A stretch of DNA of 48,489 nt, from positions 1 to 48,489 of the forward strand of contig JAIKZU010000004.1 of assembly GCA_024681985.1 (NCBI GenBank). Reading direction: 5' to 3'. Numbering within the stretch: position 1 is the stretch's first letter; each line of letters begins with the position of its first letter. This stretch comes from Lachnospiraceae bacterium (GTDB lineage Bacteria; Bacillota; Clostridia; Lachnospirales; Lachnospiraceae). Positions 8,809 to 48,489 of the stretch are shown here, one piece after another. The notes below the pieces were generated by a model. The model worked only from the letters and a program-made list of their open reading frames with translations. It had not been told where the DNA came from and did no database searches. Both the position numbers and the translations under genes were made by a program.

Positions 8809-8813
8809 GGATT

Positions 8814-10576: not shown

Positions 10577-10608
10577 CCCTAAAGACGGCTTTGTGAAGGA
10601 AAATAATT

Positions 10609-11463
10609 ATGAATGTGTTTGAGATATCTGACGAGAATTTAGAAGAGTTCGCCGAGATCCTGGGCATGGACATGATGGACGACATGCAGAGGTCTTTCTA
10701 TCGTGGATACGGCACCAGTGGTGAGGACGGAAACATCAACGGTGTCCTGGTCTACGAGGTAAAGGGCCTGGAAGACGACGACCGGGATACTTTAAGCCAG
10801 ATGCTTTTGGTGAAAGCGGATAATGAGGAATCCTACGAAAAGCTCCATGAGATCTACCGGGAGGAAGGCGTGGAAGATGAGGAGATCGTGGAGACCTTTT
10901 ATGAGTTTGAGGACGCTGCCATGGCCGACTCCTGTGAGAAGGCAGGTTTTTCCAAGGGCAAAAAGGAAAGCCAGATCATCCGGCTCAAACTGAAGGACGC
11001 TTCTGCTCTCGATTTTGTCAATAAGATCAAAAAGGTACCGGACTACATCGTGGGGCTGGAAAAACTGTCGGTGACCCAATACCGAGCAGGTGTAAAGAAC
11101 TGTATCTTCAACGGACAGACCGGTATCCTGGAAGACTTAAGTTATCTTTCCATGGGATGGTTCGATACGGGGATCTCCTCCTGTACCATTACGGACGAGG
11201 AGGTAAACGGATTCTTTTTCATCCGTACCACACCTTCGGGAGTGATCGTCCCGGTACTTTTGTATGCATACGGACCCGATTACATTAAGAACCTGGCGCT
11301 TATGATCGCCCATAGTGTAAAGGAGGCGGAGAAGCGATATCCGCCGGATACCGAGATCGTCATTCATCGTGCCAGAAAAGCCTCGGCGGAGCTGACCAAA
11401 AAGCTCATGCCCCGGATCAAGGGGATGGAGGCATTCTTTGGCGAAAGAATGGAAAATAAATGA
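10609..11463 (+). CDS. GNAT-like protein, paralogue-like partner of the 6294 gene
   Basis: A 284-residue soluble acidic protein. The first 120 residues read like a GNAT fold: an N-terminal helix rich in D/E, then GNINGVLVYEVKG and a strand QMLLVKADNEES where the acetyl-CoA motif would begin. The usual Q/R-x-x-G-x-G/A loop is missing, so this copy is probably not an acetyltransferase. The C-terminal half (GFFFIRTTPSGVIVPVLLYA onward) has an alternating strand/helix pattern like the C-terminal part of the protein at 6294. It lies between two degenerate GGDEF genes in the same direction, suggesting a shared regulatory circuit. I would not assign a reaction. Confidence 0.65.
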   Translation: MNVFEISDENLEEFAEILGMDMMDDMQRSFYRGYGTSGEDGNINGVLVYEVKGLEDDDRDTLSQMLLVKADNEESYEKLHEIYREEGVEDEEIVETFYEFEDAAMADSCEKAGFSKGKKESQIIRLKLKDASALDFVNKIKKVPDYIVGLEKLSVTQYRAGVKNCIFNGQTGILEDLSYLSMGWFDTGISSCTITDEEVNGFFFIRTTPSGVIVPVLLYAYGPDYIKNLALMIAHSVKEAEKRYPPDTEIVIHRARKASAELTKKLMPRIKGMEAFFGERMENK

Positions 11464-11547
11464 TCGCTGCCGGGAGAGAATACGAAAGATACAGGAGATC
11501 ATAATGCGTCCCGGAGGAATGGGTTTAAAAAAGGAGAGGGAAATAAA

Positions 11548-12603: not shown

Positions 12604-12611
12604 GAGGTAAA

Positions 12612-13697
12612 ATGGATCTGATCATCATTTCTGCGGACATCGTAAGTTTTGTTTTTCTCTTTGTCCTTTTATGCGGTTCACTGTTTGGATCAAAGGATGG
12701 TGGACAAAGTACGATATGGTTCAGTTGCTGCCTTTTGGTGGGGCTCTTGGGCACTGTGGCGGATGCTGTGGGGTATCTGACCGTAGATCCTTCCGAAAGC
12801 GGCAGCGGGATCCTCTTTGCCTGTATGATGTCCTATATTCTGTGTGCGGGGGAGTTTGCGGTATTTACTTTTTATTTCTTTTCCGTACTTAAGACCAGAG
12901 CGACCCTTCCCAAGTGGGCCATCCTTCCGGTGCTTTTGATCAGTGTGGCGGATAGCATTCTCTGCATACTGGGCACTGTAAACGGAAAAATGCTCTACGT
13001 GGAAGAAGGCATCGTCATAGACGGTGATTGGGCGGTTTATCCCAGTATTCTGCTGTTTTTGGGCATACTGTATCTATATTATGTGTTGTCCTCTTATCGG
13101 AAGGCATTAAGCCCCAATCAGGTATTGGCTTTCGGAGGATTCCTGTTCTTCCCCATTTTGGATTCCTGGATCACTCTCTTTAGTCCGGATATGGACTTTA
13201 CCTATCCTATCATCGCGCTGGCTTTTCTGGTGATCTACGTGATCGTCCAGGAGCATGCGGTGGCAGAGGAGATCCTGCGCCAAAAGGTTTCCGAAGAGGA
13301 TGCCCATGTGGATCCTCTGACACGTTTCAAAAACCGCCGTGCCTACGAGGAGGCACTGGAGGCGGAGAGGCGGGGCAGAGCAAAGGGCGTACTGTATTGC
13401 ACCGTCAATCACATAGATGAGATCAGAGAAAAAGACGGGCCGGAAGCGGTGGATCGGCACGTGGTCAGGTTCGCTGATCTCATGGGAGAGAACTTCCCGA
13501 AAGCGGAGATATGCAGGATTTCCGAGAAAGGCTTTGCGGCTTTTTTGTATAAGATGAGTGAAGAAGCCATGGAAAAGAAGGTTCGTGTTTTTAAAGAGAT
13601 CCTGGAGCAGAACGACGACATGGCATCCTTTGGATTTGTATACAGCGAAGAGGCACCCTTGATGGATATGGTCAGGGATGCCCAGCAGAAGATATAA
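12612..13697 (+). CDS. Membrane protein with degenerate GGDEF domain (RISEKGF)
   Basis: A 361-residue tandem relative of the gene just upstream. It has the same seven-span membrane part, the same connector (VIVQEHAVAEEILRQKV) and the same domain opening (VDPLTRFKNRRAYEEALE). The signature has decayed further, to RISEKGFAAF. Shared phrases such as GRAKGV and SFGFVYSEEAPL (SFGYAYDEEAAL in the neighbour) show common descent. A GGAGG site lies four bases before the ATG. The hybrid kinase gene follows after 40 bases. It probably acts as a membrane sensor or partner of that kinase; no enzymatic role is expected. Confidence 0.78.
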   Translation: MDLIIISADIVSFVFLFVLLCGSLFGSKDGGQSTIWFSCCLLVGLLGTVADAVGYLTVDPSESGSGILFACMMSYILCAGEFAVFTFYFFSVLKTRATLPKWAILPVLLISVADSILCILGTVNGKMLYVEEGIVIDGDWAVYPSILLFLGILYLYYVLSSYRKALSPNQVLAFGGFLFFPILDSWITLFSPDMDFTYPIIALAFLVIYVIVQEHAVAEEILRQKVSEEDAHVDPLTRFKNRRAYEEALEAERRGRAKGVLYCTVNHIDEIREKDGPEAVDRHVVRFADLMGENFPKAEICRISEKGFAAFLYKMSEEAMEKKVRVFKEILEQNDDMASFGFVYSEEAPLMDMVRDAQQKI

Positions 13698-34150: not shown

Positions 34151-34705
34151 ATGAGGCGGGGTTCGACAGTGTATGTGCAGATAATTAGCGAAGATCCCTC
34201 TTCGCAGGAAGAAAAACAGAAGACAAAAGCGCTGTTGGCTCTGTTGAAAAAGGAACAGCCGGACTTAAGATGTGAGGTTGTTACGAAGCAGAAAGAGAAG
34301 CCCATCCGTGTACAGTGTTTCGGAGAATTCGAAGTCTTTGGACGGGAAGGTCCCGTTACCTTTAAGCGGGCCCGCACAAAGGAACTTCTGGCGGTTTTGG
34401 TATGTCATCGGGGCAGCATGCTGACCATGGGAACCATTATGTCCATCCTTTGGGAGGACGGAGAGGATTCCGATTCCGATCGCAGTTACCTGCGTACGCT
34501 GATCAGTGATCTGAAAAAGACCTTCGCCGAGAACGGCGCTGACGATACCATCATTAAAAACTATAACAGTATCGGCTTGAATACCGGCAGCATCCAGTGT
34601 GATTATTACGATTTTCTGGACGGAAAGGTAGAAGCGGTCAAAAGCTATAACGGACAGTTCATGAAACAGTATTCGTGGGCCGAATATGAGATATCTTGGA
34701 TATGA
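34151..34705 (+). CDS. SARP/OmpR-type winged-helix regulator, receiver-less
   Basis: A 184-residue probable transcription factor. Residues about 50-150 match the Trans_reg_C/SARP DNA-binding fold: IRVQCFGEFEVFGREGPVTF, then KRARTKELLAVLVCHRGSML, and RSYLRTLISDLKKTFAENG. A short helical end (DYYDFLDGKVEAV) resembles the start of a bacterial transcriptional activation domain, but the TPR-like remainder is missing. The first 45 residues are one beta-alpha-beta unit, perhaps the remnant of a receiver domain; no phosphorylation aspartate is seen. ATG 34151 has a poor ribosome site, while GTG 34169 has GAGGCGGGG upstream and could be the true start. Its stop overlaps the next gene (ATGA). It probably regulates this cluster. 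Confidence 0.75.
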   Translation: MRRGSTVYVQIISEDPSSQEEKQKTKALLALLKKEQPDLRCEVVTKQKEKPIRVQCFGEFEVFGREGPVTFKRARTKELLAVLVCHRGSMLTMGTIMSILWEDGEDSDSDRSYLRTLISDLKKTFAENGADDTIIKNYNSIGLNTGSIQCDYYDFLDGKVEAVKSYNGQFMKQYSWAEYEISWI

Positions 34706-35205
34706 ATAAAAAAAAGGCAGCAAACTTCCTTACGGGGCTGATCATCGTTTTGATGTTGGTGGTCGCGGTTCTCGTGATCCTTAAGGTGAGAGGCGTTCCG
34801 AAACTGAATCTAGACCCCGGACGCGAAGAGAGGAAGGAAAAAAGAGAAGCGACCCAGGAAAACCTCATGGGAGAGTGGGTTGCCCCGGATGACGAGGATT
34901 TTGTCATAGACATCTGGCGGGACGAAAAAGGAATGTTCCGCGCCATCGTCAACCAAACAGACGAAGAAGGGACCGTGCTCTATTGGGAGATGTCCGGTGT
35001 ATGGAATGATTCCATGGGAGGTTTTTCTTATACCAAGGGCACCAAAAAGCAGGTTACCTACGATATAGACGGAAACGTGACGCAGGAGGTCATCTATACG
35101 GACGGCACCGGGAAGTTTACCGGTGACGGTGAGGGGCTGAAATGGAAAGATGACAAAGAGAAAATCGCTTCAAAGATAACATTTACCTATTCAGGAGAGT
35201 ATTGA
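34702..35205 (+). CDS. Single-span anchored protein with lipocalin-like beta domain
   Basis: A 167-residue protein starting at an ATG that overlaps the regulator's stop codon by four bases. MNKKKAANF is followed by a span (about residues 12-30), then a charged linker and a beta-rich outer domain of about 115 residues beginning LMGEWVAPDDEDFVIDIWRD. The phrase 'GEWV...DFVIDIWRDEKG' and the strand-turn pattern after it recall small lipocalin-like or META-like beta barrels. I do not recognise a family with confidence. It lies directly ahead of the 622-residue protein in the same cluster, so it is likely an extracytoplasmic component of the same assembly. Confidence 0.68.
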   Translation: MNKKKAANFLTGLIIVLMLVVAVLVILKVRGVPKLNLDPGREERKEKREATQENLMGEWVAPDDEDFVIDIWRDEKGMFRAIVNQTDEEGTVLYWEMSGVWNDSMGGFSYTKGTKKQVTYDIDGNVTQEVIYTDGTGKFTGDGEGLKWKDDKEKIASKITFTYSGEY

Positions 35206-35223
35206 CCAGGAAGGGAGATAATT

Positions 35224-37092
35224 ATGAACAATACGCAGCTGTATCCTTTTGAGAGAAACCGCTACTATCCGAGAAAGCGTATGTCCAGCGGAGACTTCAC
35301 CGCTGAGCAGACCTACATGAACAACAAACGCCGTTTCTTAAACGGTCTGATGTTTGGTTCCGGCGTGGTCTGCGGACTTGGAGTTTTCTCCCTGGATGAT
35401 CTTTCCTTCATGGTGGAAAGCGGTGTGGCCATTGATGGCATGGGTCGTGAGATCGTGGTGGAGACTTCACAGGTGAAAAAACTCTCCGCCATTGAAGGCT
35501 TCGATTCCCTGCGCACCAATCAGGTCAGCCTTTGCCTGCGCTACAAGGAAGACGATGTACACAAAGTATACTCCGTAGATCAGGACGATCCCACGGCGGA
35601 GTTCCAGTATAACCGTGTGAGAGAAGGATATACCCTGTTTTTGATCGATCAGGAAGATATCCCGGGAACCTACGACATGGAGAATGAATTCCTGTTAAGT
35701 TCCGTTCTCTATTCCAGCGCGAATTACATGGTGACCTATCGGATGCCCGCATCCGCCTGCCGCGGTCATGTGATCAAAGGGGAAGTCATCGTGGAAAAAC
35801 TCTCCGATGAGGATGTGAGCCTGACCTATTCTGCCAGACTGCAGACACCGGCCTTTTTATCCTCCGAAGGAAAGAACATCCTTCCGGTGGAGATCACGGA
35901 TCTGACCCTTAATCAGGGAGAGACCAGAGTCATCGAATACTGGATGGAGACATTGGATTCTCCCGTCAATACCACGAACATCATCATCGAAAGCGGTTCT
36001 GCCAGTGCCTTTGAAAACGACGTGGCAGCGGAGATCTTTGCCAACTTCATGATGGAGATCGTACTGACGGACTTAAAGCCCAGACAGCTTGTAAACCGTG
36101 AGATCGGCCGTATGAACCTGGAAATGAAGAACATCGGCGGACAGGGGGATTACATCCGTCTGGCTGATTTCACCCTGGTACGTACCGAGAGTGCCTACAT
36201 CATCGAGGAAGTGATAGAGACTACCGTAAAGCAGTATGTGGCAGCTCCCGCCCAGGACTTAAAGAGAGGTGATTACCTCGAGTATTTCGTAAAAGAAGCG
36301 GATATCCGTGCACCTAAGCTGGATATGAACCTTCCCCTTTTACACAGTGATTTTGCAGCTCCCGCCAAAACCGGCGGTCCCCAGATCGCTACGGGAACCT
36401 TAGAGATCCCTCTGGGTGACGACGCCAGAAAAGGCGATATCTTCTATTCCGGCGAGATCCTGCATGGATTGGGCCCCGGCAATGTTTACGTGGAAGTCGG
36501 CTACGAGATGATGTCCGACGAAGGTTTAGTGGGCTCCTCCGCAAAGAGCACCATCTACGGAAACCCGGAGATCTTCGGACATGAGGTAAATTCCGTAGTG
36601 AAGGCACAGACCGCAGTGCGCGTCTTAAACGACAAGGGAAGCTTTGTGGTGGGCGCAAAGATCTTAGACACCGTGGATTACCTGATCCTGACCTATCGCT
36701 GGGTTGCCATCCGCTTCCAGTCCGGAGAGGACTTAGAGCAGGATGTGGACGTCACCGGCATCAGTATTTCACCCGAGATGCCTACCGTTCGCATGTTGAC
36801 AAAGGAAAGCCATTACTTCGGCGTTCGCTTCGAGGGTACGGCACCCGTATCCGTCTCCTACGAACTGACGGAGGAGAACGCCGGCGATATCACGGCGGAC
36901 GGCGTATATACTGCGCCTGCCAAAGCCGGTGTATATGAGATCCGTATCTACTGCACCGATATGCCCAAGGTATGTACCTACGCCTATGCGGTGGTGGAGA
37001 AGAAGGGTATGGAAGACACTGCCGAAGATCCGAAGATCGCAGAAAAGTTGGGACTTTCCCAGGGCACAAATCTCGGTAACGTAATCAAATAA
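35224..37092 (+). CDS. 622-residue protein with N-terminal module resembling contractile-injection/phage-tail-locus proteins
   Basis: No signal peptide or membrane span. The N-terminus reads RYYPRKRMSSGDFTAEQTYM, then KRRFLNGLMFGSGVVCGLGV, and later VESGVAIDGMGREIVVETSQ. I associate this pattern (acquired 'F-x-x-EQ-Y', 'N-x-x-x-x-G-x-GVVCGL', 'G-x-AID-x-x-GREIVV') with proteins encoded in contractile injection and phage-tail-like loci; this is recollection, not a search. The rest is beta-rich, with several immunoglobulin-like segments and a late Ig-like domain (VTGISISPEMPTVRM ... GVYTAPAKAGVYEIRIYC) of the Big_2 kind. No sheath, tube or baseplate gene is in the window. A GGGAG site precedes the ATG. 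It is probably a structural or binding subunit, possibly cytoplasmic or released. Confidence 0.7.
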   Translation: MNNTQLYPFERNRYYPRKRMSSGDFTAEQTYMNNKRRFLNGLMFGSGVVCGLGVFSLDDLSFMVESGVAIDGMGREIVVETSQVKKLSAIEGFDSLRTNQVSLCLRYKEDDVHKVYSVDQDDPTAEFQYNRVREGYTLFLIDQEDIPGTYDMENEFLLSSVLYSSANYMVTYRMPASACRGHVIKGEVIVEKLSDEDVSLTYSARLQTPAFLSSEGKNILPVEITDLTLNQGETRVIEYWMETLDSPVNTTNIIIESGSASAFENDVAAEIFANFMMEIVLTDLKPRQLVNREIGRMNLEMKNIGGQGDYIRLADFTLVRTESAYIIEEVIETTVKQYVAAPAQDLKRGDYLEYFVKEADIRAPKLDMNLPLLHSDFAAPAKTGGPQIATGTLEIPLGDDARKGDIFYSGEILHGLGPGNVYVEVGYEMMSDEGLVGSSAKSTIYGNPEIFGHEVNSVVKAQTAVRVLNDKGSFVVGAKILDTVDYLILTYRWVAIRFQSGEDLEQDVDVTGISISPEMPTVRMLTKESHYFGVRFEGTAPVSVSYELTEENAGDITADGVYTAPAKAGVYEIRIYCTDMPKVCTYAYAVVEKKGMEDTAEDPKIAEKLGLSQGTNLGNVIK

Positions 37093-37108
37093 CAGGGGGA
37101 TTCTCGCA

Positions 37109-37957
37109 TTGGAATATCACTCACAGGGTATGAGGCTTTCCGAGGTGCAGTTGATCTCGGAAAACGAATACGGACGGGTTACGGTCTGCGAAGATCTCTC
37201 ATCTTCGGAACGTACCAGATATGCGGTGTATATTACGGATGATCACGAGATCATCTCTAAACTGCATCGCGTATACCACAATGCCACGAATATTCCTTCG
37301 GATACTGAAATTTCTTATTTTTCGGACCAAGGACATTTTCTGGTGGTATTTCCGTACGTGCCTGCCAGAGAATTATTAAAGTTTTATATGGGATCCACTA
37401 TGCCGATTCCGGAATGCGAGGAAGTGTTCAAGAACTATGTCATCACCTGTATGACATCCAATCTTCCATGGCCGGTTTTATATTTGGCATTATCCCAGTC
37501 ACAGGTGAATGTGGCCCGGGACGGTTCCGTTTATCTGTCTTATTCTTTCGATCTCTCCGGACTGAATGAAGAGATCAAGGAGGGAGACTGTGTTGCTCTA
37601 TGCGTCCGGGATCTGATGGACATGCTGTCTCAGAAGCCTGCCAATATCCGCTGGGATCTTAGGGAACTTCTGACGAAGCGCAGCAAACGGGCAGTATTTA
37701 CGAGATTCACCGAGCTCTATCGGGACATAGAGGTGGCTTCCGGCAGAAATCGTAAGGGAGGCTTTTTCCGTCGTATTCTTCTTTGGTTTTCCGACAACAA
37801 AGACCAGTTGTTCCGGTTTTTTTTGACCATCAGCATCATTTTGGTGATCTTTACCATTGTCACATTTTTGACCAATGCCATTTTCGGAGATGTTCCATGG
37901 CTTCGGTTGTTCATTCGTAGCTTTGAGCGTATAGGCACCCAATCATTGACGGAGTAG
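37109..37957 (+). CDS. Membrane pseudokinase-like protein
   Basis: A 282-residue protein starting at TTG 37109, with GGGGGA eight bases upstream; an ATG at 37130 has a poorer site. Residues about 15-210 show a worn protein-kinase outline: GRVTVCEDLSSSERTRYAVY as an N-lobe, HFLVVFPYVPARELLKFYM as the hinge, and LSQSQVNVARDGSVYLSYSF where the catalytic loop and DFG should be. The catalytic HRD aspartate, the VAIK lysine and DFG are absent, so it cannot be an active kinase. One span at about 236-260 then leaves about 20 residues outside. The topology recalls EssB/YukC of type VII secretion, another membrane pseudokinase, but no other type VII gene is present. Confidence 0.68.
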   Translation: MEYHSQGMRLSEVQLISENEYGRVTVCEDLSSSERTRYAVYITDDHEIISKLHRVYHNATNIPSDTEISYFSDQGHFLVVFPYVPARELLKFYMGSTMPIPECEEVFKNYVITCMTSNLPWPVLYLALSQSQVNVARDGSVYLSYSFDLSGLNEEIKEGDCVALCVRDLMDMLSQKPANIRWDLRELLTKRSKRAVFTRFTELYRDIEVASGRNRKGGFFRRILLWFSDNKDQLFRFFLTISIILVIFTIVTFLTNAIFGDVPWLRLFIRSFERIGTQSLTE

Positions 37958-37961
37958 TTTT

Positions 37962-40424
37962 ATGAGTAAATTTGGAAATCGGATTATTCTTTTTGCTTGC
38001 GGCATCTGGGCTTTGCTCATCTTTGGCATCACCGGCGCACTGCATTTGAATCCAAATGAGAGAGCGGTGTATTCCATGTCCAGCGACAGTGTAAATTTCA
38101 TGGATTACACCTATGTCAGCGACAATACCTACGGCGTAGGAAATATCTATCAGATCGACAAAACCGGAAAAGTGAAAAAGATCTACCAGACCGGCGGACG
38201 GAACTACGTGGCGGGATGGAGCGTGCTTCATCTGGCCACAGACGGCAATGAAGGCCGTTCCGGTGGAGATTTCTACGCTATTTTAAAAGGCGGAGAAAAT
38301 GAGATGGGGTATGCTTCCTACCGGATCGTGGCCTACACGGACAATCTGGGCACGGATACCATGTCCCCGGCCTTCTATATTCACAGTTTTACCAAGGTGA
38401 CGGGCTTTTCCTACGAAGAGGGAATATTCTATATCACTGCGGTGACCAATAACCGACAGGAAGTATTGCTCTACAGTTTCAATGAGACGGAAATGATCCC
38501 CATTGCGGGTATAGATACCAACAAAAGTGAGAAACTGGCGGCGGGAGCTACTGAGTTAAGCCCCATCAGTTCCGAACGAAATTCTTCCGGACAGCTCTTC
38601 TCCGATGCAGAGTATGCCAATTCCATGCTCTATGTACGTACAGACGAGCAGGAAGTCGGTGAGTACTTTGCGGTGGATGAAGAGAAACAGCGGATCTTTG
38701 ACACCCGTCAGGAAGGTATTTTGGATCGGCTGACAGCAGAGGGCGTATCCCTTGTGACAGTGATCGCTCTCATCATCGTAGGCTGCGTGATCCTGCTCAT
38801 CGTCGGTATCGTCTTGGAACACCGCCGTCGCATCGTATATCGGGTGGTGGTGGTAGAAGCCCTGGTGGCTGCCGTATTTATCATATTTATCGCCTTTACC
38901 TGTCTACAGGGACAGGATTCGGCCACACGGGAATTCGTGCGAAGTGAACGACGCATCCTGACGGCCTTCGGTGATGGCACTCCTACGGATTTTGCTACGG
39001 AAGAATTCTTTACATCTTCCGAATATGACGCTTATTACAGCGCTATGCAGACTTTGGCGGAGGATCCCGGAGCTGTGGCGGATATCATGGATATCTGTGT
39101 GACGGAAGGTACCACCGGCGATATCGTTTTGAACCTGAAAGGTAATTCAAACCTGACCGCCGGTTATGTATACGGAGAGACGGCACAGCGTATTGCTACT
39201 GCGCAGGACGGAGTTTACAGTTCCTACGGCAAGCTGGGCGGAGAAAAGGTAATGTTCGTTTCCGCACCGGTTTCCGCAGCGCCCCAGTATCGGGTCTTGT
39301 GTGTGGCAAAGGTGCTGACACCGCTGGAGTACCTCTTCAGATTTGACCGCCTGCTGTTGCTTTTGGCCTTTGTGACATTTGTTCTGGTGGCGATTTTAGT
39401 AGCCCGTCTGATCATATACGATAGCCGCGTGCTTTTGCAGGTGAGCGAAGCATTGGAGATGCTGGGACTGACCGGAGATACCGAGGTGATCCCCGAAGGA
39501 CTTCCCGGGTATGATACCCGTCGGATCTGGGCCAGTATCAATGAGATCAGCAGGAGCTTAAAAGAAGCGAACCGCTTCGGTTATCTGACCTATGAGGCCT
39601 ACTATCGGTTCGCACCGAAACGGATCGAAACCATTTTAGGAAAGAATGCCATTACGGAAGTGGACGTGGGAGATACCCGCAGGGTCTACGGAACCGTGGC
39701 ATTTATTCATACACCCACATCCGTCGGGTTAGACAGAACTTCTCTCAAAGAAAAGAATCTGTTTTTGGAAAATGTGAGCAAATATGCTTCCGCTACGGAT
39801 GGTATCATCGTATCCGCTGAATCAGATCTTTCCGCGGTGCGGCTACTCTTTACCGATGAGAACCACAACAGCATCCGTTTCGGAACGGATCTGGCCCAGG
39901 AAGCCTATGCGGAATCGCCCGAGCAGCGACCTACCATCATCTTACATTACGGTGATTATGTTTACGGCGTGGCAGGTACCGATACCATTGCTTATACCTT
40001 CCTGTCCGGTGAGGACGAATTTGCCATCGAAGGATGCGCCAAGTGGCTGGGAAGCCTGGGCGTGACCATGGCCATCACCGAAAATGTTATGGAGCGGGAA
40101 AAGGGTGCATGGGATGTTCGTTACATCGGATTCATCTTACCCAACAGTCAGGATCGGGAACATCGCATTAAGCTCTACGAAGTATTGGATGCCCAGGACC
40201 AAAGTTCCCGTATCGACAAGCGTCGCATGGCGGAAGATTTCGACAGCGCACTAAAGCTTTTTTACGAGAGCGACTTCTATTTTGCCAGAAATGCCTTTAC
40301 GGATATCCTTAGGGAAGCGCCCACAGATGATGTGGCAAAGTGGTATCTGTTTGAATGTGAGCGACTGTTAAACGAGCAGGCATCCCCGGATTTTGTGGGA
40401 GAACTGCATTTTGACCAGAACTAG
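37962..40424 (+). CDS. Four-span membrane protein with degenerate class III cyclase-like domain
   Basis: An 820-residue protein. Span 1 is about residues 7-27, an outer beta-rich domain about 28-258 (propeller-like strands such as NIYQIDKTGKVKKIYQ), spans 2 and 3 about 261-317, a second outer sensor-like domain about 320-455, and span 4 about 464-486. The cytoplasmic end follows adenylate cyclase family order: YRFAPKRIETILGK, then RVYGTVAFIHTPTSVG where FADIRGFT is expected, TIILHYGDYVYGVAGTDT, GCAKWLGSLGVTMAITENVM, and an FDSALKLFYESDFYFARNAF tail. Metal-binding aspartates are missing, so catalysis is very unlikely. It starts four bases after the pseudokinase gene and probably forms a complex with it. 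Confidence 0.75.
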   Translation: MSKFGNRIILFACGIWALLIFGITGALHLNPNERAVYSMSSDSVNFMDYTYVSDNTYGVGNIYQIDKTGKVKKIYQTGGRNYVAGWSVLHLATDGNEGRSGGDFYAILKGGENEMGYASYRIVAYTDNLGTDTMSPAFYIHSFTKVTGFSYEEGIFYITAVTNNRQEVLLYSFNETEMIPIAGIDTNKSEKLAAGATELSPISSERNSSGQLFSDAEYANSMLYVRTDEQEVGEYFAVDEEKQRIFDTRQEGILDRLTAEGVSLVTVIALIIVGCVILLIVGIVLEHRRRIVYRVVVVEALVAAVFIIFIAFTCLQGQDSATREFVRSERRILTAFGDGTPTDFATEEFFTSSEYDAYYSAMQTLAEDPGAVADIMDICVTEGTTGDIVLNLKGNSNLTAGYVYGETAQRIATAQDGVYSSYGKLGGEKVMFVSAPVSAAPQYRVLCVAKVLTPLEYLFRFDRLLLLLAFVTFVLVAILVARLIIYDSRVLLQVSEALEMLGLTGDTEVIPEGLPGYDTRRIWASINEISRSLKEANRFGYLTYEAYYRFAPKRIETILGKNAITEVDVGDTRRVYGTVAFIHTPTSVGLDRTSLKEKNLFLENVSKYASATDGIIVSAESDLSAVRLLFTDENHNSIRFGTDLAQEAYAESPEQRPTIILHYGDYVYGVAGTDTIAYTFLSGEDEFAIEGCAKWLGSLGVTMAITENVMEREKGAWDVRYIGFILPNSQDREHRIKLYEVLDAQDQSSRIDKRRMAEDFDSALKLFYESDFYFARNAFTDILREAPTDDVAKWYLFECERLLNEQASPDFVGELHFDQN

Positions 40425-40460
40425 GGACAAAAATCGAACTTTTATACCAAGGGGTAGTTT

Positions 40461-41702
40461 ATGAACCTACGTAACATACTTATAAATGTCCTTCGGACCA
40501 AAATACTGCCCATCTTTACACGGATGCAGCTTCTGTTAAACCCCCGGTTCATGGCCGGACGTATAACAGAATTTGTCCGCGGGTTTATCCAGAAGGTCTT
40601 AGACATCCGTCCACGGCACAAGGACGATTATTATCCCATTGGCCGTTGGCTGGTTTCCAAGCGACTGGCCTATGCCGTGGTGATCGTCGCTGCAGTTCTC
40701 TGTATCGTCTATATCGTCAGCCAGAAGAACGCGCTGTTTCCCAGCTTGAACGATGACCATATCAAAACCTATAACTACAATTCCATTTTGCTGAAATACG
40801 CCAAAGGAAAAGTTCGCATTCGCGGAAAATCCGGGTGGCTGGCTTATGAAGGAGAAGTTTCGGATGCCGCCTGTAACGGCAAGGGAACCCTCTTTAATCC
40901 TGAAGGTACGGTGATCTACGAAGGAAACTTCGAATCCAGTATGTACGAAGAGGACGGCACCCAGTATTATGATTCCGGCGCTTTACACTACGAGGGCAAG
41001 TTCCACGAAAACGAATACTCCGGCGAAGGTAAACTGTTCAGGGAGACCGGAAGCCTCGAATATGAAGGAGACTTTTTCCATAATGCCAAGGAAGGAAGCG
41101 GCATCCTCTACAACCTAAGCGGTGAGGAGATCTACAACGGACAGTTCACCCAGGATGAGATCAATTACTCCTATATGGTGGGTAAATCCGCAGCGGAGAT
41201 GGCTGCTATTTACAGCGGTGAGCGGACGCTTTACGAGGCGGAGACGGAACGTGTCCGTGTCATGGATGAGATAGGTGTCATGACCGAGGAGATTCAGGAT
41301 GAATCCTCCGTGGATGATATGGCCACTGTCAGTGCCGTTTACGTCATGGACAATACCATCCGTATCGGCAATCAGGATTACAATAGTTTCGATGGTTTGG
41401 AACAAGCTTTGGGAGAAGCTACTTACGTGGGTGATTCCTATGCCACCCTGCCGGAGCTTATGATCATCAACCGCTTAAACGAAGCTTCCAGCGTCAGTGT
41501 CATGAACGGTGTGGCGGAAGTAGTAGAGAACGAAGTCTACACGGAGTACACGGAAGTGGCTTCCTATGATACGGATTACGTGGTATATCTGCATTCCTAT
41601 GAACGGGACGGTCTGGTCTACAACTTCGTATCCATGCCGGAGGATGAAAACTTCTCCTTCTATTACATCCTGCAGAGAAATGCCAGCGATGACGCTGCAT
41701 AA
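40461..41702 (+). CDS. Membrane-anchored MORN-repeat protein
   Basis: A 413-residue protein with an amphipathic, basic N-terminus (about 1-65), one span at about 70-88 (YAVVIVAAVLCIVYIVS), and an outer part. Residues about 128-235 contain four and a half MORN-type repeats of about 23 residues, each with a YEG-x-F core (YEGEV, YEGNF, YEGKF, YEGDF, YNGQF) and a G-x-G turn. The last 180 residues are acidic and unassigned. Outside location of MORN repeats is implied by the positive residues before the span. A GGGG ribosome site precedes the ATG, and a terminator follows at 41733, making it the last gene of the cluster that starts at 34151. Confidence 0.8.
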   Translation: MNLRNILINVLRTKILPIFTRMQLLLNPRFMAGRITEFVRGFIQKVLDIRPRHKDDYYPIGRWLVSKRLAYAVVIVAAVLCIVYIVSQKNALFPSLNDDHIKTYNYNSILLKYAKGKVRIRGKSGWLAYEGEVSDAACNGKGTLFNPEGTVIYEGNFESSMYEEDGTQYYDSGALHYEGKFHENEYSGEGKLFRETGSLEYEGDFFHNAKEGSGILYNLSGEEIYNGQFTQDEINYSYMVGKSAAEMAAIYSGERTLYEAETERVRVMDEIGVMTEEIQDESSVDDMATVSAVYVMDNTIRIGNQDYNSFDGLEQALGEATYVGDSYATLPELMIINRLNEASSVSVMNGVAEVVENEVYTEYTEVASYDTDYVVYLHSYERDGLVYNFVSMPEDENFSFYYILQRNASDDAA

Positions 41703-41732
41703 CGGATACGTTATGAATGAATAGGTTAACTG

Positions 41733-41769
41733 CACATCCATTTTCCTGTGAGAAAATGGATGTGTTGCT
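41733..41769 (+). terminator. Hairpin terminator closing the 34151-41702 cluster
   Basis: CACATCCATTTTC (41733-41745) and GAAAATGGATGTG (41752-41764) form a perfect 13-base stem with a six-base loop, followed by a T-rich TTGCTTTT run. It separates the MORN gene from the exporter genes and rules out the longest reading of the following gene, whose frame extends through it. Confidence 0.7.
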
Positions 41770-41812: not shown

Positions 41813-43990
41813 ATGCCCCGAATGTCAGAAAACCCCCGGATCAAAAATAAAGGCGTGGCGAAGGTTCCTGTGATCATGCAGATGGAAAGCAGGGAATGCG
41901 GAGCGGCGTGCCTGTCTATGGTGTTGGCCTATTACGGCAGGTGGGTGCCTTTGGAGCAGATGCGCAGGGAGTGCGGTGTTTCAAGAAGCGGTGTCAGTGC
42001 CGGCTCCATCCTCCGGGTTGCCAGGGATCACGGCTGTGAAGCAAAGGGCTACACCTTAGAGACAAAGAATCTGCGTGCGTGCATACACTTTCCCTGCATC
42101 ATTCATTGGGAGTACGAGCATTTTGCAGTGCTCTGCGGCTTTAAGGGAAAGCACGCCGTGCTCATCAATCCCCGGAAGGGCATGATCCGACTGGACTTAG
42201 AGACTTTTGAAAAAAACTTTTCCGGTCTGTGCCTGGATATTTATCCCGGTAGGGATTTTCAAAAGGCAGGGAGCAGACACAGTGTCTTTTCTTTTATCAA
42301 AGACAGACTAAAGACCATGATACCGGCGGTTTCCGTACTGACGGTGGTGATGGTATTAAATTCCCTTTTCGGTTACATCGATCCCCGGATCAATCAACGA
42401 TTTTTGGATACGGTTCTGACTGCAGGAAGCGCGGAGAGACTTTATGCTTTTATCCGTCTGGCAGCACTCATAGCTTTTCTGGAGATCTGTGTGGCTTTTG
42501 CCCAGCGGATCTTTCGACTGCTGATCTCCGGCACCCTCTTCGAAAGGGAGAGCACTTCTTTCATGAAAACGCTGATGAGTCTTCCAGAGCGGTTTTACGA
42601 CCAACGGAGATCCACGGAGCTTCTTGGGCGGTTTTCCCGCAGTACCAATGTCTCTTTGGCCATTGTCAATACCTTTGCGCCTCTTTTGGTACAGTCGGTG
42701 ATGATGGTTTTCTTTCTCACGGTAATGGTACGATCCTCTTTGCTTTTGTCGGCAGTGGGACTTTGCACCGTGATCATTAATCTAGCAGTCACCCGATGGA
42801 TGGCACAACGGCGAACGGAATACGCCAGGGTGATGATCAACGATACCTCGAAGCTTAACAGCGCCACCGTTACGGGGATCGAGATGATGGAGACCCTGCG
42901 GGCTTCCGGGGCGGAAGAAGGATATCTAAAGCGCTGGAAGGGCTACCAAAAGGATATGTTTGACCGGCAGAGCGAGTTCGCAAAAAAGGATCTGTTCCTT
43001 TCCGTATGGCCTGCCTACCTTTCCGTGTTTGCCAATTATCTGGTGATGATCATCGGTGTGTACTTAACCATGCAAGGCAGCTTTACCTTGGGACTGATGA
43101 CTGCCTTCGGCGGTTATCTGTCTGCATTTTTCATGCCGGCCAATACCCTGATCGACACCGGAAAGAACATCTTTGAGATGCGGGTGGACATGGAACGCAT
43201 CCGGGATGTAACGGATTACCCGAAGGATCCGTTTCTGGAAGAAAAAACGGGACGATATAACGGAAGGCTTTCGGGAGAGGCGAGCCTTACAAGTGTCAGT
43301 TTTTCCTATGACAAAGGAGACGACCCGGCGGTAGCGGAGGTTTCATTGCGGATCACCCCCGGAAAGCGGATCGCCCTGGTGGGAAAGAGCGGCTGCGGAA
43401 AGACCACTCTGCTAAAACTTATGACGGGGATCTATCAGCCGGATGCCGGAGACATCACCTATGACGGTCATGCCCTTTTGGATATTTCCCATAAAGCTTA
43501 TACGGACAGCGTTGCCATCGTATCCCAGGACACCCGTCTTTTTGATGAGAGCATCTTGGAAAATATCCGTCTCTGGGACGAGAGCATTCCCGAAAAAAAG
43601 GTGGAGGAGGCGGCAAAAGCGGCAGCCATCCATGAAGAGATCCTGACCATGGAGGGAGGATATGCGCATCGTCTCTCAGATCGGGGATATAACCTTTCCG
43701 GAGGACAGCGGCAGCGGATAGAAATTGCCCGGGCTTTGGCAAAGGATCCGGCTCTCTTGCTTCTGGATGAAGCCACTTCAGCTTTGGATGCCCGGACGGA
43801 AAAGCAGATATTCGATTCTGTAAAAGAGAGAAAAATCGCCTGTATCATCGTATCCCATCGCATATCCGCCGTTAGGGATTGTGATGAGATCCTGGTGATG
43901 GAAAAAGGAAGAATCGTTGCCCGGGGAGCGCATGCAGCCCTTTTGGACAACTGTGAAGCATACAAAGAACTGATCGCCGATGAATCATAG
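41813..43990 (+). CDS. NHLP-type peptidase/permease/ATPase ABC transporter (C39)
   Basis: A 725-residue exporter that removes double-glycine leaders and exports the peptide. An N-terminal C39 peptidase (about 18-140) has the catalytic cysteine C29 in ESRECGAACLSMVLAYYG and histidine H103 in EHFAVLCGF; the third residue, usually aspartate in a DP motif, is asparagine here (LINPRKG). A six-span permease domain fills about 160-460. The ATPase has Walker A VGKSGCGKTTLLK, signature NLSGGQRQRIEIARA and Walker B LLLLDEATSALD. The ATG at 41813 is chosen because GGAGG is just upstream; 41822 is the alternative. The frame extends left through a terminator, which is not credible. The gene overlaps the next ABC gene. 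Confidence 0.92.
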   Translation: MPRMSENPRIKNKGVAKVPVIMQMESRECGAACLSMVLAYYGRWVPLEQMRRECGVSRSGVSAGSILRVARDHGCEAKGYTLETKNLRACIHFPCIIHWEYEHFAVLCGFKGKHAVLINPRKGMIRLDLETFEKNFSGLCLDIYPGRDFQKAGSRHSVFSFIKDRLKTMIPAVSVLTVVMVLNSLFGYIDPRINQRFLDTVLTAGSAERLYAFIRLAALIAFLEICVAFAQRIFRLLISGTLFERESTSFMKTLMSLPERFYDQRRSTELLGRFSRSTNVSLAIVNTFAPLLVQSVMMVFFLTVMVRSSLLLSAVGLCTVIINLAVTRWMAQRRTEYARVMINDTSKLNSATVTGIEMMETLRASGAEEGYLKRWKGYQKDMFDRQSEFAKKDLFLSVWPAYLSVFANYLVMIIGVYLTMQGSFTLGLMTAFGGYLSAFFMPANTLIDTGKNIFEMRVDMERIRDVTDYPKDPFLEEKTGRYNGRLSGEASLTSVSFSYDKGDDPAVAEVSLRITPGKRIALVGKSGCGKTTLLKLMTGIYQPDAGDITYDGHALLDISHKAYTDSVAIVSQDTRLFDESILENIRLWDESIPEKKVEEAAKAAAIHEEILTMEGGYAHRLSDRGYNLSGGQRQRIEIARALAKDPALLLLDEATSALDARTEKQIFDSVKERKIACIIVSHRISAVRDCDEILVMEKGRIVARGAHAALLDNCEAYKELIADES

Positions 43991-45719
43991 AGGAATGACC
44001 ATAAAAAAGCATATGGAAACAGAGCCCCTAAAGGTCCGGGACCTGTTGCGGTTTCGGCTGGAAAGTATTGCGCCTGTGGATGCTTTTGTGTTTGTTCTCT
44101 GTTCTCTGGTGGCGCTGGGACTGTCTCTTTTGGTGCCGGTGATGATCCGGGCCTTGACGGGGGAGGTGCTGGAAAGGGGAAGCCTTCTTTTGCTTATGGG
44201 AGTGGGAGTGGTGCTCCTTTCTTCCGCTCTGTTTGAAGAACTCATAAAGATCCCCAAGTCTCTGGCGGGACTTCGTCTCCGGAGAAAGACCAAAAACGCT
44301 TTGGAGGAAACTCTTATGCGTCGGGTCCTAAACCTGCCCATCGATGTGGCAAAACGTTATCCGGTGGGAGAATTGAAAAAACGAATGGAGGATGCGGCAG
44401 AACTTTCCGATGTGGGGATGGATACAGCCATTGCTTTAAGCACCGGGATCTTTACCGCAGCCGCTTTTTTTATCCAGATGCTGCATTTTGAAGTCCATTT
44501 GGTGGCACCGGCTTTTTTGATCCTGGGAGTGACCATAGTCCTTACGGTAATCAATGCCCGTGCCCTCACCGGACAGAAAGCAAAGATCCAGCGGTCGGAA
44601 GCGGATCTAAGCGGTGTGGAGCTGGAGATGCTTTCCGCCCTGACAAAACTCAAGCAGACCGGAGCCGGAGAGAGAGCATACCACCGTTGGGAAGAAAAGT
44701 TTTTAAAAAATGTAAAGGATACCTATGCGCCCCCGGTTTTCCTTCGCGTCATGCCGGTGTGCATCACCGCCGTTAAACTTTTAGGTACGTTGCTTTTATA
44801 CGCGGCAGCAGCATCATGGGGCACGAAGACTGCGGACTATCTGGCGTTTTTGGCTGCTTACGGCGGCATGACCGCCGCTCTTTTGTCCCTTACGGAGTTG
44901 TCCGGAAAGATCGCGGAGATCCCCTCGCTATATGAGATGGCCTCTCCCATTTTAGATGTGGCACTACCGAAGGAAGCAGAACGGCCACCGGTAGAACCTC
45001 TTAAGGGAGACATTAGCATACGGGATTTAAGCTTTTCCTATGTGCCGGGGATCCCGGTGATCCGGGGACTGAATCTGGATATATCTGCCGGCGAATGCAT
45101 CGGTATTGCCGGGGCTACGGGCTGCGGAAAGACCACCCTGGTCCGTCTGCTTTTGGGACTTTTGACCCCTTCGGAGGGGAGCATCGCCTATGACGGTGCC
45201 GATATGAAAAATCTGGATAAAACTACCCTTCGCCGACAGATGGGGACGGTGATGCAGGACGGATTTTTGATGGCGGACGATATCCGCTCCAATGTGGCGC
45301 TGACCCGGCCGGAAGCTTCAGATGAGGAGATATGGGAAGCTCTGGATGCCGTGGGGATGAAAGACTATATCGAAGAGCTGCCACCGGGACTGGATACCCA
45401 AATCTACGAAAACGCCGGCGGTTTTTCCGGAGGGGAAAAAGCCAGACTCATGATCGCCCGGGCACTTTTGAACAAGCCGAGGATCCTGCTTTTGGACGAG
45501 GCCACAGGACCTTTGGATGTCAGGACGGAGCGAAGGGTGATGGATGCCGTCAAAGGTTATGGGGGAACAAAGATCATCGTGGCGCACCGCCTGTCAGCCT
45601 TAAAAAACTGCGACCGGATCTGTTATATGGAAAAAGGTTGCATAAAAGAGTGCGGAACCTTTGAAGAATTAGTGCAAAATGACAGAAAATTTGCTAGAAT
45701 GGTAAAAGGGCAATTTTGA
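43980..45719 (+). CDS. Second NHLP-type ABC transporter subunit (permease/ATPase)
   Basis: A 579-residue half transporter with six spans (about 35-310) and an ATPase domain: Walker A IAGATGCGKTTLVRLL, signature GFSGGEKARLMIARA, Walker B ILLLDEATGPLD and the histidine of IIVAHRLSALK. No peptidase domain. It lacks the long N-terminal extension found in some NHLP second subunits. It starts inside the end of the C39-ABC gene (ATG 43980, stop at 43990), so the pair is translationally coupled and probably forms a heterodimer. No membrane-fusion (HlyD-like) gene is seen in the window. ATG 43995, preceded by AGAGGA, is an alternative start. Confidence 0.9.
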   Translation: MNHRGMTIKKHMETEPLKVRDLLRFRLESIAPVDAFVFVLCSLVALGLSLLVPVMIRALTGEVLERGSLLLLMGVGVVLLSSALFEELIKIPKSLAGLRLRRKTKNALEETLMRRVLNLPIDVAKRYPVGELKKRMEDAAELSDVGMDTAIALSTGIFTAAAFFIQMLHFEVHLVAPAFLILGVTIVLTVINARALTGQKAKIQRSEADLSGVELEMLSALTKLKQTGAGERAYHRWEEKFLKNVKDTYAPPVFLRVMPVCITAVKLLGTLLLYAAAASWGTKTADYLAFLAAYGGMTAALLSLTELSGKIAEIPSLYEMASPILDVALPKEAERPPVEPLKGDISIRDLSFSYVPGIPVIRGLNLDISAGECIGIAGATGCGKTTLVRLLLGLLTPSEGSIAYDGADMKNLDKTTLRRQMGTVMQDGFLMADDIRSNVALTRPEASDEEIWEALDAVGMKDYIEELPPGLDTQIYENAGGFSGGEKARLMIARALLNKPRILLLDEATGPLDVRTERRVMDAVKGYGGTKIIVAHRLSALKNCDRICYMEKGCIKECGTFEELVQNDRKFARMVKGQF

Positions 45720-45798
45720 GAAAATCCCTATCCGGAAGTTGCACTTGTGTTGCAGTGGCTGTGATAGGATGTGCATAGAATTAAGGAGGAGAAGTGCC

Positions 45799-46134
45799 AT
45801 GAAACAGATGGAGCGCTATATTAAAACCTTAACCCCCGAATTGCAGGCAAAGATGCGGGGGGCAAATACCGTAGAGGATGTCTTTCGTATAGCCCGACAG
45901 GAAAACATGGAACTTCCCGAGGAAGCGTTGGATTCCATATACGGTGGTTGCGGCACTTCCTATACATGGAAATACGAAGAATACTATAAATGCAGGATCT
46001 GTGACAGCAAGGTCAGCTTAAAGTCTGTGGGACATGATGGATTTCCCGATGTGTACTATTGCCCGAACTGCCTGACCACAAAGGACGAGACCGAGGTATA
46101 CCACTTCAGCCGCTCGTGGCAGGAGATCAAGTAA
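45799..46134 (+). CDS. Double-glycine precursor peptide with Nif11-like leader and CxxC/CxxC core
   Basis: A 111-residue secreted-peptide precursor directly downstream of the two exporter genes. The ATG at 45799 has AAGGAGGAG nine bases upstream. Residues 1-50 look like a Nif11-type leader: TPELQAKMRGANTVEDVFRI, then LPEEALDSIYGG ending in the double-glycine cleavage site used by C39 peptidases. The 61-residue remainder starts with cysteine and has C65, C68, C88 and C91 in two CxxC pairs (CRIC and CPNC) 19 residues apart, the spacing of a zinc ribbon rather than a typical bacteriocin. No modification enzyme is visible. The charge and tyrosine content are moderate. It could be a bacteriocin-like peptide, signal or structural peptide. 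Confidence 0.82.
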   Translation: MKQMERYIKTLTPELQAKMRGANTVEDVFRIARQENMELPEEALDSIYGGCGTSYTWKYEEYYKCRICDSKVSLKSVGHDGFPDVYYCPNCLTTKDETEVYHFSRSWQEIK

Positions 46135-46164: not shown

Positions 46165-48489
46165 TTGAAACATATGGGTTTTGGAAAAATATATAAGCGG
46201 ATCATCAGCATTATGCTTGCAGTTGCGCTGCTCTCGGGCAGCTTTTCTTCGACTTCATACGCAGCGGTGACCATTTCCCACAGTGAAAAGTCTACGAGCC
46301 TGGATCTTTTAATGGAAGTTGCTTCCGCAAACCTGGCCGTCTATGGTATGCAAACCACCAAAGAAAATGTTAAAAAAGCTCTTTTGGCAGCAGGCTATGA
46401 ACATGATCTTTTGCTCATCAGCGAAGACGAACGGGAGTCTTTTGAGGCATCTCTCACGGGATGGATCACTGTCGACAGTGACACAGAAGAGGATTCAGAG
46501 ATACCTCCCGCTAAGGTGGATCAGATTACTTCTGTTACCATTAACGATATCATCAATAAGCTGGTGGATCAGTACAATACCGCAAACGGTTGGGATATTG
46601 CGACAAAAGAACCCTTGCAGATCACTGATCCGGAGACGGGGAAGGTATCCCAGGGTTCCACCACAGCCAAGTATGTCACCTTTGATGCGGCCAAGGGATT
46701 ATCCTATGCCGGTTCGGTGCTGACCACCGGATATACCTACGGGGGGATGATGGTTGAGTATGTCCGTGAGAAGGATCCTTCCGTCAGAGTCATGTATAAC
46801 GACGATATCCTTTCGGCCATCAAGGAAAAAGTGACCACGGACACACCGGACGCCTCCATGTCGGATATCCTTTCTGCCGTACATGAGCAGGCACAGCTTG
46901 TCAGAGATACATATTCCAGCGGCACGGACAAGGACTACATAACCGAGTTTTTAGGCAAGCATGCCGTGACATATTTTGAATACACCGATGGCGGAGTCGA
47001 CGAAAGCAAGGTCCCGGCGGGAACCCTTTTTATCGGGACTTTTCTCATCGATGCCCAGACGGTAAATGACGTGTATTACCGTTACGCAAAGGACAGCATG
47101 GGCATGGCGAACCAGCCCATCATGTATTACAAATCCGAACTGGATGAAGGTCACTGGAAAGATATCGTTTCCGCAGTGGGACTGACGGATATCCTGCCTG
47201 CATCCGCCAACGTGGAAACTGCTGATCTGATGCGCCGCAACATCACCTGCGTCATCGGAAGTGACGGTATTCCCAGATACCCGGATGACGGAACGGAAGC
47301 GGATATCTTTACCATGTCAAATCCCTACGACATGGCGCAGGTACCGGAACTTTTACCTCTAAAGACACTTTTGGATTCCGGTGCCGTAAGCCAGAATACT
47401 TCCGATATATCCAACCGCTATGCGGCAGATGCGTTGTTCCGTTTTTTTAATTATGACGGATGCGGCGATAACGATTCCATGATGATCATCAGGAACAAAG
47501 CTTATCGGGATTATCTTTACGACCATTCGGATGCGGAGACCATCAAAAAAACCACCGGACCCAATCCCATCAAGCGGGCGGTGCCGGTAAACATCACACA
47601 GGAAGAGATGGATTACATCGTTTCCATGACCACACAGCAGTTAAAGCTGGAGTGTAACATGCCCCAGTGCGAGGATAAATACGCAGGGCACGGAGATGCT
47701 TTTTATGATCAGATCCTTGCCTGGGCAGAGTACTACGGGAACGATAAGTTCAAGATCAATAATACCTACGGTGGGAACGTATCCCATCCCTACATCTTTC
47801 CCATTGAGGATATGGCAGCCTCCGAATGGGAATTGGATAACCGGAGAGCCGATTGGAAGAACCCCCAGAGTTATATGATCATCATCAACGGCAAGATCGG
47901 AACCGATGATCAGAAAGCTTTTGTTGACAGATGGCTGAAAGACAGCACATATTTGGCTCCGGACAATATAACCTATACAATGAGCGGACAGTTTGCTGCC
48001 AATCACGGTGATAACATCAACGATATGTTTTACGCCTATACCGGGCTGAACTATTGGGGCGGAGATACTTCAACAAAATTCGAACTAGGCAGTAAATGGA
48101 ATGAGTTCTCCATCATGATCTACCACTTCATGGATTGGATGCGAAATATGTACGACATCCGAGACGAGGAAACGGATAAGACAGACCAGACTTTACGGGA
48201 ATTAAATGCGCTCTATCGTCAGAAGAGAGATATCGCAAATACAGTAGATGAAGAGGAAGAAGGAGAGGATGAGGAAAGCGAAGAAGCCAAAGCAGCCAGA
48301 GCAGCCAGAGCTACGGCCAGGGAAAATGCCAAGAACGAAGCAGATACGCTGATGCGGCTCATGAGCCGTGTGGATGCCACCCGGCGGGCTCGGATCTATT
48401 ACAACCTGGTCTACAATGAAAAGAATAACTACATCGTGGGACCCACGCTGCCCTACTTATTAAACCTTTTGGAAAACGGTATCGGCCCC
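46165..48489 (+). CDS. Large secreted protein of unknown function, open to right edge
   Basis: The frame beginning at TTG 46165 (AGAGGAG seven bases upstream; an in-frame ATG at 46174 is possible) has no stop in 775 codons and continues past the window. It starts with a signal peptide: MKHMGFGKIYKRIISIMLAV, followed by a hydrophobic core and SYAAV as a likely cleavage site. The mature part (ISHSEKSTSLDLLMEVASAN onward) is mixed alpha/beta. A charged segment near codons 695-725 alternates acidic (DEEEEGEDEESEE) and Ala/Arg-rich runs. I recognise no domain. It lies 30 bases after the precursor gene, and may be exported machinery, immunity or an effector of that locus. Confidence 0.82.
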   Translation, partial: MKHMGFGKIYKRIISIMLAVALLSGSFSSTSYAAVTISHSEKSTSLDLLMEVASANLAVYGMQTTKENVKKALLAAGYEHDLLLISEDERESFEASLTGWITVDSDTEEDSEIPPAKVDQITSVTINDIINKLVDQYNTANGWDIATKEPLQITDPETGKVSQGSTTAKYVTFDAAKGLSYAGSVLTTGYTYGGMMVEYVREKDPSVRVMYNDDILSAIKEKVTTDTPDASMSDILSAVHEQAQLVRDTYSSGTDKDYITEFLGKHAVTYFEYTDGGVDESKVPAGTLFIGTFLIDAQTVNDVYYRYAKDSMGMANQPIMYYKSELDEGHWKDIVSAVGLTDILPASANVETADLMRRNITCVIGSDGIPRYPDDGTEADIFTMSNPYDMAQVPELLPLKTLLDSGAVSQNTSDISNRYAADALFRFFNYDGCGDNDSMMIIRNKAYRDYLYDHSDAETIKKTTGPNPIKRAVPVNITQEEMDYIVSMTTQQLKLECNMPQCEDKYAGHGDAFYDQILAWAEYYGNDKFKINNTYGGNVSHPYIFPIEDMAASEWELDNRRADWKNPQSYMIIINGKIGTDDQKAFVDRWLKDSTYLAPDNITYTMSGQFAANHGDNINDMFYAYTGLNYWGGDTSTKFELGSKWNEFSIMIYHFMDWMRNMYDIRDEETDKTDQTLRELNALYRQKRDIANTVDEEEEGEDEESEEAKAARAARATARENAKNEADTLMRLMSRVDATRRARIYYNLVYNEKNNYIVGPTLPYLLNLLENGIGP

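Follow-up and report, generated by a model that had tools for sequence, protein, structure and literature searches.

A conserved membrane module with a pseudokinase and a pseudocyclase accompanies contractile injection systems of Clostridia

A gene cluster with a conserved core

Between positions 34,151 and 41,702 of a 48,489-nucleotide stretch of DNA from a Lachnospiraceae bacterium (GenBank assembly GCA_024681985.1, contig JAIKZU010000004.1, positions 1 to 48,489 of the forward strand, hereafter the window) lie six open reading frames (ORFs), A to F, four of which belong to a conserved membrane gene set in the loci of contractile injection systems (CIS). All six are on the + strand, at the positions given by an initial annotation made from the window alone, and are separated by -10, 18, 16, 4 and 36 bases (Table 1). 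That annotation described a cluster of six genes encoding a receiver-less SARP-like regulator, an anchored beta protein, a protein with a tail-locus-like N-terminus, a membrane pseudokinase, a four-span protein with a degenerate cyclase domain and a membrane MORN protein. The tight spacing and the characters of the individual proteins were largely borne out; the independence of the set and its extent were not, as the genes belong to a known class of machine and two of the six are peculiar to one clade.

The two outsiders are A and B. Trans_reg_C (PF00486; 30.2 bits against a Pfam cut-off of 26.2) is the only domain matched in A, and the membrane helix of B occupies residues 9-27 (here, as for all proteins A to F, membrane topology is a hydropathy prediction). 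Clear relatives of both at the equivalent place occur only in the closely related loci L021, L022, L023 and L031, with weak similarity to A in some other loci. A and B are thus clade-specific neighbours, and the notion of a six-gene unit was dropped. The conserved core consists of C, D, F and usually E, in a locus that extends far past position 41,702. The order C-D-E-F is repeated across many genera, so the arrangement is not due to chance; the core occurs in gut Lachnospiraceae and also in other Clostridia.

Table 1. Positions of the features discussed, in the window unless another locus is named (handles of the form G000, C140 and L130 denote genomes, contigs and loci)
Feature	Position	Strand	Description	Basis or remark
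A	34151..34705	+	Receiver-less winged-helix, OmpR/SARP-type DNA-binding domain	PF00486; clade-specific neighbour
B	34696..35205	+	One N-terminal membrane helix and beta-rich outer part	Hydropathy; clade-specific neighbour
C	35224..37092	+	Soluble baseplate-adaptor candidate, 622 residues	CIS13_fam-like N-terminus, beta-rich remainder
D	37109..37957	+	Membrane pseudokinase, cytosolic kinase fold	Fold, PDB profile search
E	37962..40424	+	Four-span protein; two outer domains, HAMP-like linker, dead class III cyclase domain (about 545-745), C-terminal TPR-like helices	
F	40461..41702	+	Single-span protein (helix 69-87) with five MORN-like repeats of 24 residues each, predicted to lie outside the cell	
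Hairpin	41732..41765	+	14 pairs, one G-U	Between F and the ABC gene
G	41813..43990	+	NHLP-type peptidase C39 ABC exporter	Start at 41813 has a ribosome-binding site; ORF open from 41717
H	43980..45719	+	Second NHLP-type ABC exporter subunit	TIGR03797, 423 bits, under cut-off of 709
I	45799..46134	+	Peptide of 111 residues; leader ending YGG, core with two CxxC pairs	
J	46165..48489	+	Secreted protein with signal peptide	Conserved in CIS locus; cut by contig end
D homologue	L032: 11806-12579			ORF
TolC/OEP-like secreted proteins	L046:10108-12267; G000:C140:6108-10514 (L130); L131		680-1470 residues	Monoderm Lachnospiraceae

The core belongs to contractile injection loci

The partner system of C-D-E-F is a CIS. 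The series C-D-(E)-F keeps its order and either adjoins a complete CIS operon or lies within it; such an operon encodes sheath, tube, hub, spike, gp25, two baseplate-J proteins, Cis12 and an AAA+ ATPase. In the genome from which the window derives, the window's contig (C9) ends inside J and the structural genes lie on two other contigs, C40 and C140, which hold sheath (PF04984, E = 2e-18) and tube (PF06841, E = 7e-29), both on C40, together with two CIS_tube proteins, hub, spike, gp25, two baseplate J proteins, Cis12 and AAA. C40 runs from the PAAR gene to the start of the AAA gene and C140 carries the rest of AAA and further genes, including a TolC-like one; the Pvc16 gene falls in an unassembled gap. 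In relatives both the Pvc16-type terminator (PF14065) and the AAA+ ATPase (PF00004) were matched, and the baseplate set of the locus was confirmed as gp25, two baseplate J-like proteins, Cis12/TIGR02242, a VgrG-like hub, a spike and a PAAR tip. Sheath and tube occur in the same order in this genome, in G200, in G180 and in others.

The doubt left by the broken assembly is removed by the close relative G200, where a single contig (L031 and its continuation) carries the whole series SARP-B-C-D-E-F-radicalSAM-ABC1-ABC2-I-J-J-Pvc16-x-PAAR-sheath-...-Cis12-STAS-AAA. Five further genomes (G180, G080, G041, G129 and G149) carry their baseplate genes on the contig that holds E, some 20-27 kb downstream of it, in a syntenic stretch with the order C-D-E-F-OEP-like-J-Pvc16-x-PAAR-sheath-tube-...-CIS_tube proteins-hub-spike-gp25-BJ1-BJ2-Cis12-STAS-..., where BJ1 and BJ2 are the two baseplate-J proteins. 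Pseudobutyrivibrio strain MD2005 (L027) also carries a gene set of the C-D-E-F type with secreted OEP-like and J proteins.

C is directly 3' of Cis12 in many relatives. Throughout a sister lineage (G196, G022, G016, G188, G106, L030, L032 and L033) it directly follows Cis12 within the structural operon, and D and F come next; E lies either between these two or a few genes further along. In L032 (an uncultured Clostridia bacterium) and L033 (an Oscillospiraceae bacterium) the genes for two baseplate-J proteins and Cis12 immediately precede C; spike and gp25 genes come shortly before these, and in L033 a CIS-type AAA+ protein is encoded further on.

TssJ, TssL and TssM had no match among proteins A to J, the scanned C40 proteins or their relatives; family scans of the locus recognised no tail fibre of the Afp13 type; the scanned genes yielded no lysis cassette; and no capsid or other phage genes were recognised among the family-scanned locus proteins, in a search that was not exhaustive.

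Constancy and co-occurrence of the core genes

C and D are present in all 26 of the loci examined and F in all 24 of those holding the corresponding region; E occurs in 22 CIS genomes and in one genome in which no CIS was detected (G125). Of 200 Lachnospiraceae genomes, 20 have at least three matches to the CIS baseplate family and were counted as CIS genomes, the remaining baseplate-family matches in this set being single and weak, as expected from phage baseplates. D occurs in 14 of the 200 genomes, all 14 among the 20 with a CIS (Fisher p = 3e-17), and strong matches to E in 17, of which 16 have a CIS (Fisher p = 5e-19). Many genomes also contain weak matches to E (E 1e-8 to 1e-4); most of these cover just the linker/HAMP-like stretch, and they were not counted. 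A class-wide sample gave five strong matches to D, all in CIS genomes; weaker ones, which include proteins of other architecture, were again left out of the count. The initial annotation had proposed to look for recurrence of the set in order, and for co-occurrence with sheath and tube genes, which would name the partner system; on both points the outcome is strongly positive.

C and D are also co-inherited with the baseplate: their pairwise distances correlate with those of BJ2 at r = 0.93 and r = 0.91, respectively, against r = 0.95 for BJ2 and Cis12, although shared species history also feeds such correlations.

Proteins of the core

The tail-locus-like N-terminus noticed in C corresponds to residues 8-142, which match the NCBIfam family CIS13_fam (NF053767; E = 6.3e-24). 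With 84.9 bits over these N-terminal 135 residues, C does not pass the curated cut-off of 370 bits for a full-length match, and by sequence it is a relative of the CIS13_fam N-terminal domain rather than a filed member of the family. No convincing membrane helix was found in C; a Gly-rich stretch (39-57) barely exceeds the hydropathy threshold and was not counted. A candidate identity as the tail-fibre protein Cis13 of Anabaena was not supported: the one CIS match of C in the PDB, All3314, is probably Cis11, because Cis12 and Cis13 are All3315 and All3316.

D is a membrane pseudokinase. It has one membrane helix (237-255) near its C-terminus and a short outer tail with a conserved IGT motif. 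An AlphaFold2 model built from an alignment of ten relatives (predicted local distance difference test score, pLDDT, 80) retrieved 1205 PDB chains at E<=0.001 with Foldseek, and nearly all of the best 50 of these 1205 are titled protein kinases. Kinases are likewise the top matches of the family profile against the PDB (best E 0.0022). In an hhalign comparison with kinases from related genomes the alignment spanned only 16 residues, so the kinase assignment is based on structure and the PDB profile search. Where kinases carry HRDxKxxN...DFG, the D family has QxQINxxKDGSVYFxYxxDL, with neither HRD nor DFG; both the catalytic Asp and the Asp of DFG have thus been lost.

E is a membrane pseudocyclase with outer domains. 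Its four membrane helices lie at residues 8-26, 267-285, 295-313 and 467-485, and HAMP was detected in two of its relatives. The model of the whole protein is fair (pLDDT 66), with the C-terminal domain mostly at about 75-90, and this domain resembles class III cyclases (CyaB, 3r5g, template modelling score 0.66-0.68 of target). The E profile aligns along the entire domain to cyclases of related genomes (hhalign E 5e-7), and the relative in G022 exceeds the cut-off of Guanylate_cyc (PF00211). In an alignment with five intact cyclases, E and its relatives lack both metal-binding Asp residues and the transition-state Asn/Arg pair. The claim that every enzyme-like domain in the cluster is dead therefore holds for D and E, which have the only two such domains there are.

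In F, an inner part of 68 residues precedes the membrane helix, and the repeats, which run from residue 129 to 225, have a strict 24-residue period. Description of F as a membrane MORN protein stands as to helix and repeats; the MORN match itself (E = 1.5e-4) is slightly under the Pfam cut-off. Beyond F, the hairpin originally reported as perfect at 41733 is real and more stable than shuffled sequences (z -3.5), with one of its pairs a G-U. It is not claimed as a terminator because its T-run is weak and terminator-like sites are over-called in the scan (25 against 11.8 expected), but it may mark an operon boundary.

A proposed dock and trigger, and its alternatives

For a conserved membrane set based on dead kinase and cyclase folds, the simplest reading is that the folds serve as binding or sensing domains; the scaffold using folds for binding only that was originally suggested is a plausible version of this. 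We propose, with a probability of about 0.68, that C, D, E and F constitute the membrane module of the CIS of monoderm Clostridia, in which C would act as a baseplate adaptor and D, E and F as an inner-membrane dock and trigger. C would sit on the baseplate adjoining Cis12 and link it to D. The dock would comprise D, with its kinase fold inside and one span, E, with four spans, and F, with its repeats outside. The outer domains of E may sense contact, the state of the wall or damage, and pass the change via the HAMP-like linker to the dead cyclase/TPR part. Pseudokinase and pseudocyclase would then transmit it to the baseplate through a change of conformation or a rearrangement of dimers, neither making nor transferring nucleotides or phosphate, whereupon the sheath would fire. 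The secreted J proteins and the TolC-like secreted protein may extend the path through the cell wall. A broader proposal, which we offer tentatively and at somewhat short of even odds, is that Clostridia possess a cell-anchored CIS, resembling the type VI secretion system (T6SS), with a trans-envelope complex of its own that is unrelated to TssJLM: D, E and F would dock and trigger, and the TolC-like protein and J would lead through the thick wall.

Several observations weigh against the proposed dock. The link of C to the baseplate is drawn from 135 N-terminal residues and gene position, and its sole CIS match in the PDB, Anabaena 7b5h chain All3314, is weak (E 0.46). The mapping of kinase residues in D comes from the fold and a 16-residue profile alignment. 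Two loci that are otherwise complete (G085 and G104) lack E, which is moreover placed elsewhere in much of the sister lineage and has a relative of 916 residues (G125:C30:13517, L095) in a genome 85% complete with no CIS detected. E is therefore not strictly required, and its pseudocyclase family is not exclusive to CIS.

The best of the alternatives, which we nevertheless consider unlikely, is that D, E and F act as a sensor of stress or damage controlling the production or triggering of the CIS, for example within a self-lysis programme as in Streptomyces, rather than a physical dock. The layout of E is that of a receptor, with outer domains, a HAMP-like linker and an output domain, and STAS, ATPase and histidine-kinase-like genes occur within the same loci. 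Moreover, the single membrane protein CisA of Streptomyces is needed for contraction of particles that have no membrane-binding part (PMC12237407). A sensor of this kind fits poorly with the behaviour of C, D and F, which are as constant as the baseplate genes, diverge with them and, in the sister lineage, come right after Cis12; F and D have no sensor or output signature, and the sensor-like E is the very part that is absent from some loci.

It is improbable that the particles are instead released as extracellular CIS, with the module serving release, wall passage or protection of the producer. Related CIS of Actinobacteria and Bacteroidota are indeed extracellular or cytoplasmic (PMC10066040, PMC12210884), the family scans recognised no fibre gene, and J or the OEP-like proteins could act outside; the scanned genes, however, included no recognisable lysis cassette, and a three-protein membrane set conserved with the baseplate suggests anchoring over release. 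That the six genes form a sensory scaffold of their own, or part of the neighbouring NHLP peptide exporter, placed beside CIS genes by chance, might seem to follow from the window's own genome, where the structural genes are on other contigs and the exporter is the nearest recognisable system, but this very improbable reading is contradicted by the co-occurrence (p = 3e-17), by conserved gene order in over 20 loci, most of which lack the exporter, and by the contiguous locus of G200.

Relation to known systems

CIS of Gram-positive bacteria have been little studied (PMC10066040), and CIS loci in Firmicutes were already known (PMC8213781). In other CIS, attachment to membranes is achieved by proteins encoded at or near the place of C, or by separate membrane proteins (PMC8894136, PMC12237407, PMC11566945). 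The thylakoid CIS of Anabaena (tCIS) contacts the membrane through an extension of Cis12 and through the tail fibre Cis13, which has a membrane helix of its own (PMC8894136). It shares with the present loci baseplate J and Cis12, and in tCIS, too, a protein encoded beside Cis12 ties the baseplate to an internal membrane of the producer; it differs in that C has no convincing membrane helix and three separate membrane proteins come after it, of which two are pseudoenzymes. In the CIS of Streptomyces coelicolor, CisA is one protein, for which no kinase or cyclase fold is mentioned in the accessible text (PMC12237407), as opposed to a four-protein set here. For the haloarchaeal T6SS, the putative anchor is Hbor_38620, with six membrane helices and a cytoplasmic domain of about 150 residues, and Bacillota Cis11 are given as the closest relatives; no pseudokinase, pseudocyclase or MORN protein is mentioned in the text consulted (PMC11566945). 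Like the membrane complexes of T6SS (TssJLM, T6SS-iv and Bacteroidota T6SS), the proposed module would dock the baseplate on the inner membrane before firing; it differs in that no gene of the TssJ/L/M type was recognised in the locus scans and the membrane parts here have other folds.

The membrane protein EssB combines a cytosolic pseudokinase domain with a single membrane helix. D has the same architecture as EssB/YukC of type VIIb secretion, but the machine to which it is linked is a CIS. No match of D to YukC/EssB was found in Pfam or among the 60 PDB profile matches listed, and a type VII secretion assignment was rejected on this basis and on that of the linked CIS genes, WXG100/EssC not having been searched genome-wide.

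The statement of the initial annotation that no described system has this gene set holds for the module and not for the machine. The machine class is known, and the membrane module is new in kind as judged from the open-access literature, in which we found no description of the C-D-E-F set (an absence that is not proof) and no paper joining contractile injection with a pseudokinase, MORN or Butyrivibrio; Lachnospiraceae appear only in passing, and those of rumen and gut are barely mentioned in connection with CIS. For the docking of a phage-tail-like machine on a thick-walled cell with a single membrane, and its firing through that envelope, C-D-E-F with the secreted OEP-like and J proteins provides a defined candidate gene set. 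A kinase fold and a cyclase fold appear to have been recruited, both without their chemistry, into a single mechanical device, and these dead copies point to an undescribed mode of docking and triggering in single-membrane bacteria.

Neighbouring genes and accessory proteins

The OEP/TolC-like protein (Pfam OEP match up to 1.5e-11; top PDB profile matches of the TolC family) is constant in CIS loci of the Lachnospiraceae type; none was found in G022 or G196, both of the sister lineage. Its loss from the window's clade was considered and ruled out, given the copy on C140 and another in G202 shortly after F. We hypothesize that, in bacteria without an outer membrane, such a protein could form a channel or needle through the wall. 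J occurs as tandem duplicates in G180, G200 and G201, the copies being long (900-1440 residues) and of low identity (L046:12277-18423; G200:C144, L088).

Between F and J the window holds an inserted cassette (41813-46134) consisting of an NHLP-type C39 ABC pair and a peptide. G scores 726 bits against TIGR03796, under the cut-off of 853, and has a counterpart at the equivalent place in L031/G200; the homologue of I at the equivalent place in G200 (E 4e-38) is accompanied there by a radical SAM/SPASM enzyme. I is likely to be the substrate of the G/H exporter, and a modified peptide may be exported from within the CIS locus. A link between the core and NHLP peptide export was dropped, the exporter being the insertion of one clade and missing from most loci.

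In loci of the Lachnospiraceae type, a 99-residue STAS protein (PF01740; L057:17392-17691) is constant between Cis12 and the AAA ATPase, and in several of them histidine-kinase-like and ABC ATPase genes lie near it; control of the CIS by partner switching is possible. Two poorly conserved proteins encoded between the tube and CIS_tube genes (L057:3307-6688), one of about 450 residues with a weak tube-like (gp19) patch and one of 666 residues with no convincing family, are candidates for cargo or tape measure. Finally, more than 20 kb upstream of C, the window carries genes for GNAT-like and multi-span membrane proteins (6273-13697), some relatives of which directly adjoin CIS genes in G041, L024, L026/L027 and G200; these may be accessory or effector genes of the CIS.
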